A stretch of 64,000 bases of DNA from an uncultured Elusimicrobia bacterium (lineage in GTDB: Bacteria > Elusimicrobiota > Elusimicrobia > Elusimicrobiales > Elusimicrobiaceae). Both the position numbers and the translations under genes were made by a program. Positions within the stretch are counted from its first letter, which is position 1; each line of letters opens with the position of its first letter. Below the pieces are notes generated by a model. It worked only from the letters and a program-made list of their open reading frames with translations, was not told the DNA's origin and searched no databases. Location of the stretch: contig CAMZGO010000001.1 of NCBI GenBank assembly GCA_947306425.1, positions 186,001-250,000 of the forward strand, in the 5' to 3' direction. Positions 19,771 through 21,032 of the stretch are shown here, one piece after another.

Positions 19771-19807
19771 TTAGCTGAAATACTTTTAAAATTTCCTTCA
19801 TCTTTTT

Positions 19808-19855
19808 CCCCTCCCTTTTGCTTGCAAAGGCGGAGGGGCTAGGGGTGGGGTATAA
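19808..19855 (-). repeat. reverse-oriented fragment of the C-rich repeat hairpin
   Basis: CCCCTCC (19808-19814) pairs with GGAGGGG (19832-19838), followed by CTAGGGGTGGGG. This is the reverse complement, with a shorter apical stem, of the AACCCCCACCCCTAACCCCT part of the 343-bp elements at 34.1 and 51.3 kb. It lies just after the peptidase stop and may also act as its terminator. The following stretch to about 20,030 is AT-rich and I see no gene in it. Confidence 0.55.
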
Positions 19856-20037
19856 AAATTAGGTGTTTTTTGCCAAAATATTGCTAAAAATAGCCTTTTT
19901 TAACCAAAACCGTGCCAAATTTTGATTTTTGTCTAATTTTAAAGCAGTTTTATGTTTTTGTAAAACAAATTAAAATTTCAACGGTTTTTATTTGATTTTG
20001 ATTTTTTACGACGAGGATTTTAATTATTCCTTATTGT

Positions 20038-20216
20038 CGCCACCCGTATGCCTTGTCATACGGGCGGGAGATGCTGAGCAAGGGCAGTTCTTGCGAAGCA
20101 GAGGGGGGATCAATAAGGAAATAAAATAGGAAAACCTTATCCCCCATCCGTCAAGCAAATAAAAAGCCATTTGCTTGCCACCCTCCGCCCGTCCACGACG
20201 GGTGAGGGCAATACGG
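20038..20216 (+). repeat. structured G-rich/C-rich repeat related to the interior of the 343-bp elements
   Basis: Successive hairpins are: CCCGTATG/CATACGGG (20043-20050, 20057-20064); GCT-GA-GCAAG with CTTGC-GA-AGC (20073-20099); CAAGCAAAT/ATTTGCTTG; and CCCGTC/GACGGG. The tract AGAGGGGGG can pair with the downstream CTTATCCCCC. The framing bases (CCACCC, GGGCGGGAGA, GAGCAA, TTGCGA, AGAGGGGGG) match the elements at 33,992-34,076 and 51,202-51,286, while the stem bases differ in compensating ways. Confidence 0.6.
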
Positions 20217-20245: not shown

Positions 20246-20254
20246 TGGTATACT
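20246..20254 (+). promoter_or_regulatory. extended -10 promoter for the pilin leader RNA
   Basis: TGGTATACT at 20246-20254 is an extended -10 box (TG-N-TATACT). The -35 is poor. It would start transcription near 20261, about 20 bases before the first hairpin of the candidate RNA. Confidence 0.5.
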
Positions 20255-20283
20255 TTAAAAAACGAAAGGAGTTTTATTAATGT

Positions 20284-20488
20284 AAGCCGGAGACGGCTTA
20301 AAATAATTTAAATCTGTTTTTGGATCCGTAATGACGGAGAGTTAATAGAAATATTAATGCATATAGAAACCAAAAACAGTCGTATGGGCACAAAGCAAGA
20401 GGATTAATTACCCTCTTACTTTGTGCTTAATGTTTGTTATCGCAAGATAATAAACTACGACTGTTATGTTTTTGGTCTTTCTATATGC
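20284..20488 (+). ncRNA. candidate structured 5'-leader RNA with two exclusive folds, upstream of a pilin gene
   Basis: Local hairpins: AAGCCG-GAGA-CGGCTT (20284-20299), TCCGT/ACGGA (20325-20338), TTAATA-GAAA-TATTAA (20342-20357), GCACAAAG.AAGAGG/CCTCTT.CTTTGTGC (20388-20426) and a 10-bp stem with a GCAA loop (20432-20455). CCAAAAACAG (20370-20379) can pair perfectly with CTGTTTTTGG (20314-20323), closing a three-way junction. Alternatively it joins a longer stem in which 20359-20384 pairs with 20456-20488, closing a different three-way junction. Three loops are GNRA. Promoter in front and pilin ribosome-binding site behind suggest a cis-regulatory RNA. It matches no family I know. Confidence 0.55.
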
Positions 20489-20530
20489 CCAAAATATAAC
20501 GGCCGTTTTTTATTTATAAAAGGAGAAATT

Positions 20531-21032
20531 ATGAAAATAAACAAACAAAAAAATTACAGACAAAAAATTCACTAAAGGTTTTACTTTATTGGAACTTTTA
20601 GTCGTCGTATTAATTATTGGTATTTTAGCCACTATCGCCTTACCACAATATAAAAAAGTAACAGATAAAGCACGCTTTGCCGAAGTAATAACAGCAAGTA
20701 AAAGTTTAGCACAATCAATAGAAATGTATTATATGGTAAATAATAATTATCCGTACTTTTGGAAACAATTGGATATTGAAATACAAGGTTGTACGGAAAC
20801 AAGTACCTCAAGAGCTGATTTAATGTGTAAAAATTTTACAGTTGATTTAAATGAAAATAGCTTTAGTGCTTTTTTAGGTCCACGCAACAAAAATTTACCT
20901 TATAATATAAATTTGAACTATTTTTTCAAAATGGGAAATTTATTTGCAGGGCGTTTTCAATGTAGGAGTTCCGATACTCGCGGTAAGAATGTTTGTAAAT
21001 CAGTATGCGGCGCCGAAGTTTGTTATTTCTGA
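20531..21032 (+). CDS. type IV pilin-like protein with a +1 frameshift in its leader
   Basis: The frame from about 20541 encodes KFTKG then [20 protein letters not shown], a perfect prepilin motif, and continues to a cysteine-rich C-terminus (CRSSD, VCKSVCGAEVCYF) at 21032. The only well-placed start is the ATG at 20531 with an AAAAGGAG site, but it is in another frame and stops at 20575. One base fewer in the A7 run (20547-20553), or in the A6 run at 20562-20567, would restore MKINKQKITDKKFTKG joined to FTLLE, a 166-residue pilin. Phase variation, pseudogene or sequencing error are all possible. Confidence 0.75.

Follow-up and report, generated by a model that had tools for sequence, protein, structure and literature searches.

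PyrR leaders, SAM-I and other transcriptional riboswitches place three mutually exclusive stems ahead of a gene, with an intrinsic terminator just before it. In plasmid attenuators of the pT181 type, which are governed by an antisense RNA, the choice between terminator and antiterminator can be made by loop contacts between RNAs. In multi-copy T-box and riboswitch regulons, one RNA architecture is repeated before many transcription units. The DIS of HIV-1, located in the 5′ leader, has a 9-nt apical loop in which two bases precede, and one base follows, a palindrome of 6 nt (PMC4066764, PMC7357161). Homodimers of bacterial regulatory RNAs have rarely been documented (PMC7357161). Here, we describe a leader RNA in front of a pilin gene of an uncultured Elusimicrobia bacterium. 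Its stems follow the same order and logic as those of the PyrR and SAM-I leaders, and it very probably belongs to a large family of transcription attenuators that act in cis.

Layout of the leader in front of the pilin gene

Within the window (i.e., the whole 64,000-nt stretch of DNA that was analysed), the sequence CCAAAAACAG at 20370–20379 has two possible partners. With CTGTTTTTGG (20314–20323), it makes a 10-bp stem, P1, that closes hairpins P2 and P3. Its downstream partner is 20456–20487; this alternative stem comprises 26 pairs in all and encloses hairpins P5 and P6. A preliminary description of this locus had proposed two mutually exclusive folds, and the pairs are exact. The region from 20284 to 20530 folds at −85.7 kcal/mol, whereas its dinucleotide shuffles average −44.9 ± 4.5 kcal/mol (z = −9.0; none of 200 as stable). 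The GNRA loops named in that description also appear in the fold, as GAGA on P0, GAAA on P3 and GCAA on P6.

Two features had been overlooked. One is an intrinsic terminator, in which 20457–20475 pairs with 20488–20506, followed by T6 at 20506–20511; the same 20457–20475 segment is used by the long stem with CCAAAAACAG. A simple terminator scan of the window did not detect the terminator at 20457–20506, its loop of more than 8 nt being too long for the scan; the best fold of 20258–20514 with P1 forced does contain it. The other is a perfect 10-nt pairing between a “private tag”, CATATAGAAA (20360–20369), and its complement, TTTCTATATG (20478–20487), which sits within the terminator loop. The leader can be summarized as four strands in the order 1 (20314–20323), 2 (20370–20386), 3 (20456–20475) and 4 (20488–20506). 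Stem 2:3, the antiterminator, competes with stems 1:2 and 3:4 (the terminator) and is mutually exclusive with them. These alternative stems, together with the terminator, support the earlier view of a switch-like leader RNA. The extended −10 element and pilin ribosome-binding site placed on either side of it are both there by eye, although a simple promoter scan found no site on the leader strand. The features are as follows:

20246–20254, + strand: extended −10 promoter element TGGTATACT, seen by eye in the sequence and unsupported by the simple scan
near 20261, + strand: predicted transcription start, from the position of TGGTATACT
20265–20285, + strand: Shine-Dalgarno-like AAAGGAG, then an ATG-TAA start-stop at 20280–20285 (sequence)
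20283–20300, + strand: hairpin P0 with a GAGA loop (folds)
20314–20323, + strand: strand 1, CTGTTTTTGG, the 5′ arm of P1 (anti-antiterminator; sequence, with P1 formed at transcript end 20380)
20325–20338, + strand: hairpin P2 (fold; GNR(N)A pentaloops are frequent in relatives)
20342–20357, + strand: hairpin P3 with a GAAA loop (fold; with 50 of 145, GAAA is the most frequent loop on P3)
20360–20369, + strand: private tag CATATAGAAA (self-pairing far better than cross-pairing; covariation)
20370–20386, + strand: strand 2, common to P1 and the antiterminator (folds, covariation)
20388–20426, + strand: hairpin P5, with loop ATTAATTAC at 20403–20411 and palindrome TAATTA at 20405–20410 (covariation, palindrome statistics)
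20432–20455, + strand: hairpin P6 with a GCAA loop (covariation)
20456–20475, + strand: strand 3, common to antiterminator and terminator (covariation, folds)
20478–20487, + strand: tag complement TTTCTATATG in the terminator loop (sequence, tag pairing)
20488–20511, + strand: strand 4 and T-run of the intrinsic terminator (P1-forced fold; 3:4 covariation in 80 copies)
20518–20525, + strand: pilin ribosome-binding site (sequence, by eye)
20531–21032, + strand: pilin gene, with an open frame from 20589; the first ATG is out of the pilin reading frame

Several other details of the locus are worth recording. At the start of the pilin gene (20531–20590), the first ATG does not share the reading frame of the pilin signal sequence, owing to an A-run near the 5′ end; the gene may be a pseudogene, the tract may be phase-variable, or the assembly may be in error. 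The frame behind a related leader from another species (L065) is intact. A Shine-Dalgarno sequence followed by an ATG and an immediate stop codon (TAA or TAG) lies just before P0 in 46 of the 67 leaders that have an SD-ATG. C-rich/G-rich repeat blocks of the CTCCCCGCC...GGCGGGGAG type occur upstream of the window leader, at 19800–19860 and 20037–20215, and between terminator and gene in at least six other copies (L031, L036, L037, L042, L047 and L089).

Copies, target genes and covariation

A blastn search of the genome to which the window belongs (G000; 1.44 Mb in 21 contigs) recovered numerous diverged leader copies. A covariance model (R1) built from a 16-sequence alignment of copies (A1) identifies 46 copies in G000 at E < 1e-7, dispersed and single, 28 in each of two congeners, and 20 in one genome of a distant family. 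Across the phylum, R1 matches at least 91 of 341 Elusimicrobiota genomes; with no more than 8 candidates per genome scored, copy numbers from this search are lower bounds and absences from other families are provisional. A model-independent exact pattern, TACGGCTGTTATA-N22-45-AGCCGTTTTT, occurs in 39 stretches among 84,980 bacterial and archaeal species, all of them in Elusimicrobiota, and several of these stretches are from rumen or other gut MAGs according to their titles. A phage origin is rejected, as blastn gave no phage match and viral contigs yielded no copy. Rfam 15 at the gathering score returned only tRNAs for the window and 20 related loci, and a permissive search of the leader gave only sub-threshold noise. 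The T-box, c-di-GMP and SAM classes are rejected by their lack of a match, in agreement with the preliminary description, which had recognized no known class. Searches of open papers on Elusimicrobia riboswitches, pilins and leaders turned up no description of the element (subscription papers lay mostly outside this search).

The genes behind the leaders are diverse. The G000 genome has an unusually large stock of pilins, with 108 N_methyl matches of pilin type that pass the cut-off in 1.44 Mb. Nearly all of its 46 leader copies have a same-strand gene next. In 24 of them a pilin lies within 900 nt, and the remaining 22 have no pilin at that distance; the original placement in front of a pilin gene is correct at this locus and too narrow for the family. 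Other targets encode TPR proteins, SNase-type nucleases, LicD, glycosyltransferase 2, MptE-like, subtilase, PLD-domain and zinc-ribbon membrane proteins, which have no common pathway. In the larger set of 172 leaders, a pilin follows about half, and the gene begins a median of 37 nt after the terminator. In several copies, the gene start is 100–280 nt further on. From the side of the pilins, 84 of the 108 N_methyl matches have no detectable leader within 900 nt. Two leaders in G000, L057 and L096, differ in subtype and tag, and the TPR gene behind them is the same (no differences over the 150 aa inspected by eye); leaders and genes have therefore recombined.

Homologous leaders with compensatory changes, the evidence that had been proposed as a check of the two folds, are found in large numbers. 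Among the 16 paralogues, the antiterminator, tag, P5 and P6 together have 146 doubly changed cells vs 45 after shuffling, and a score of 0.530 vs 0.215, with slid registers all far lower. Considered separately, P5 has 95% paired cells and double changes in 12 of 15 pairs, and P6 has 96% paired cells and double changes in 7 of 10 pairs. For 44 pattern-found sequences, there are 468 vs 129 doubly changed cells, with a score of 0.589 vs 0.189 (0 of 500 shuffles), in an alignment that was fitted to R1 and is somewhat favourable to the model. The terminator stem, 3:4, has 51 doubly changed cells in 80 copies vs 14.4 after shuffling. P1 adds little covariation because it is nearly invariant; its own-pair energy (−11.1 kcal/mol) is barely better than that of cross pairs (−9.7 kcal/mol). 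Such invariance would be expected if strand 2 has to match two partners, and P1 is supported mainly by conservation. Together, sequence and covariation show the antiterminator, the terminator, the tags, P5 and P6. In 166 of 172 copies, the transcribed strand is the more stable of the two; its mean advantage over the complement is 9.9 kcal/mol, whereas the difference in downstream control DNA is 1.4 kcal/mol. An RNA structure is therefore favoured over a DNA structure.

Private tags and the P5 loop

The private tag consists of the ~10 nucleotides just 5′ of strand 2, and its pairing partner lies in the terminator loop. Across 47 G000 leaders, tags pair with their own partners at a mean of −15.8 kcal/mol, vs −7.1 kcal/mol with the partners of other leaders. 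A leader's own partner is the best one for its tag in 41 of these 47 leaders, and in 19 of 20 leaders from the distant family. The clear failure is L091 (904–1055, − strand), the 3′ half of which is almost identical to that of L056, with the tag mismatched to its own terminator loop; it looks like a recent chimera and a natural tag-mismatch mutant.

The distribution of tags depends on the relationship between the leaders. Between species, most reciprocal-best leader pairs above ~0.8 identity have 91–100% of the tag in common; the remaining reciprocal-best pairs, with tags at chance level, are probably not true orthologues. Paralogues have tags near chance even when their leader bodies are 86–99% identical, and the mean tag identity over all paralogue pairs is 0.41, vs 0.39 for random. 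Orthologues share tags and paralogues are near chance, so a leader's own tag tends to stay with the locus. We reject the idea that tags are hypervariable sequence because clear orthologues retain them. A trans partner for the tags is unnecessary, since slow compensatory drift under pairing, combined with the exchange of leader bodies between paralogues, could account for the pattern. Selection keeping tags separate is possible.

The loop of P5 is typically palindromic. Loops include ACTAATTAC, AGTTATAAA, AAGTCATGAG, AATTGCAAG, ATTCTAGAC, ACCTTCGAAAC, GAACACGTGAT and AGTGCACA. Of 36 distinct P5 loops of at least 6 nt, 33 contain a palindromic tetramer (15.9 after shuffling) and 28 a palindromic hexamer (3.2 after shuffling, maximum 9); the distinct loops are partly related by descent, and these counts were made without a tree. 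For 9-nt loops, the hexamer is in a 2+6+1 register in 15 of 17 distinct loops (column shuffle 2.3, maximum 7). Loops of at least 6 nt on P2, P3 and P6 have no palindromic hexamer, though few are long enough to count. The two central bases of the palindrome are adjacent and unable to pair inside one hairpin, so their covariation points to intermolecular pairing. Palindromes richer in G+C tend to be shorter (AGCT, GATC, GGCC). There are exceptions: the loops TCGCT, CTCGCTA and CTCATTA are non-palindromic (with a C-T mismatch in place of an A-T pair and the central pair retained), as is the GACG-loop subfamily. In a subfamily comprising L022, L023, L089, L090, L092, L093 and L096, which precedes TPR proteins and pilins, P5 is replaced by CCGACGGG (CCGCCGGG in L089), without the usual palindromic loop.

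Further occurrences of the loop hexamer are no commoner in its own leader than in leaders with a different type of loop. The frequencies are 0.27 vs 0.24 for TAATTA, 0.47 vs 0.50 for TTATAA and 0 for TCATGA; the value for ATTAAT (0.40 vs 0.12, 5 leaders) reflects mere overlap with the TAATTA type. An intramolecular partner for the loop is rejected on the grounds of these background levels. Judged by the palindromes, we lean slightly toward P5 being a homotypic kissing site. The flanking purines of the DIS type are not conserved (5′ flanks include AC, CC and CT, and the 3′ flank includes C), and kissing through loops made up of A and U, such as TAATTA, would be weak by itself.

Proposed switching and comparison with known systems

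Regulation very probably acts at termination, by a predicted sequence of events as follows. Transcription would start ~250 nt ahead of the T-run, and P1 (1:2) would form first. Once strand 3 is made, strand 2 may leave P1 for strand 3, whereupon the private tag and its complement would contribute ~10 extra pairs to the antiterminator. In the ON state, the antiterminator, a three-way junction with P5 and P6, would block the terminator and the gene would be transcribed; in the OFF state, P1 would hold, strand 3 would take strand 4, and RNA polymerase would halt ahead of the gene. When folding of the growing transcript was simulated for the window leader, P1 was complete at 20380 and lasted to 20455, had been displaced by strand 3 by 20465, and the tag was paired by 20490, before strand 4 exists. 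The ON and OFF folds of this leader have energies of −89.2 and −82.8 kcal/mol, respectively, and over 47 leaders the mean difference is 0.4 kcal/mol, with ON favoured in 24; these values come from an equilibrium nearest-neighbour model without kinetics, tertiary contacts or protein, and are a rough guide. On these calculations the set appears poised near zero, as a switch would require. We infer that a signal sets the ON/OFF balance, and the best lead for part of it would be a second leader RNA kissing at a P5 loop of the same type.

The nature of the signal is where the readings of this element diverge. That the RNA itself is the signal is a tentative proposal, which we consider rather improbable as it stands. 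We would put no more weight on its extended form, in which leaders recognize one another via P5 and the private tag confines strand exchange or antitermination to RNA of the same gene. If true, it would mean genome-wide barcoded self-sensing attenuators acting singly on pilins and other surface genes, e.g., with the short terminated leader exerting feedback. Alternatively, the switch could be set through the GNRA-type loops or P5 by a small RNA acting in trans or by an RNA-binding protein, as in PyrR or LicT-type systems. This is a possibility, albeit a doubtful one. GAAA, frequent on P3, and the GNR(N)A pentaloops of P2 would suit protein binding, and one common factor would account for a regulon of unrelated genes; however, a sequence-specific protein fits poorly with palindromic loops of changing sequence, and a search of the genome for a specialised NusG paralogue of the RfaH/LoaP kind found a single NusG only, on which ground RfaH/LoaP processive antitermination is also rejected. 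A metabolite riboswitch with transcriptional output, in which ligand binding to a P1-P2-P3 aptamer stabilizes P1 and turns genes off, would share the overall 1:2, 2:3, 3:4 logic, and P1 does enclose a small junction in which P2 and P3 carry conserved loops of the GNRA type. Such a riboswitch is unlikely: the 5′ domain has few conserved unpaired bases, unlike most aptamers, the element has no Rfam match, its targets lack a common pathway, and the palindromic loops would be incidental and left unexplained.

Two further readings place the function outside transcription termination. The repeats might act as DNA, e.g., as integron-like or other recombination sites that move cassettes, with the hairpins important in their folded DNA form and the RNA switch incidental. 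The palindromic P5 centres and the way in which leaders and genes have been mixed as modules (L057 and L096 with the same gene, and the chimera-like L091) would suit such sites, whereas the dispersed, single copies, the G-U pairs favouring the transcribed strand, the terminator directly ahead of the gene in each copy, and covariation that fits the switch design make this very unlikely. A thermosensor or translational switch that conceals the pilin ribosome-binding site, as the preliminary description had also entertained, gains from the strong structure near that site, but there is evidence against it: the pilin Shine-Dalgarno sequence is unpaired in the computed minimum-energy fold of 20284–20530, the conserved output element is a transcription terminator, and in several copies the start of the gene is 100–280 nt further on. 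We regard it as extremely improbable.

In this gut bacterium, whose genome measures 1.44 Mb, one undescribed attenuator family would apparently run at least 46 transcription units. At least 46 units under one RNA class is a very large number for one genome. The family offers a first way into the question of how the unusual pilin stock of Elusimicrobiota is controlled, and the private tags offer a natural system for how many near-identical RNA switches remain separate in one cell.

Compared with attenuators of the PyrR and SAM-I type, the leaders differ in having no Rfam match, targets without a common pathway, a palindromic P5 loop, and a per-copy private tag that extends the antiterminator into the terminator loop. 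Unlike T-box and riboswitch regulons, the family has at least 46 copies in 1.44 Mb, is confined to one phylum, and has no T-box match. Integron attC sites are similar in being multi-copy near accessory genes, with variable sequence and conserved pairing; in contrast, the leaders are dispersed rather than arrayed, are more stable as the transcribed RNA strand, and include a promoter and terminator. Unlike in the pT181 type, an antisense transcript would be unnecessary, since the complementary partner would be another leader copy. The HIV-1 DIS resembles P5 in its 9-nt loop, its 2+6+1 palindrome and its position in a 5′ leader, with the dimer here predicted; P5 differs in belonging to a bacterial attenuator and in having many palindromes, mostly AU-rich, with flanks that are not strictly purine. 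The palindromic P5 loops are a direct, testable case for homodimers of bacterial regulatory RNAs.
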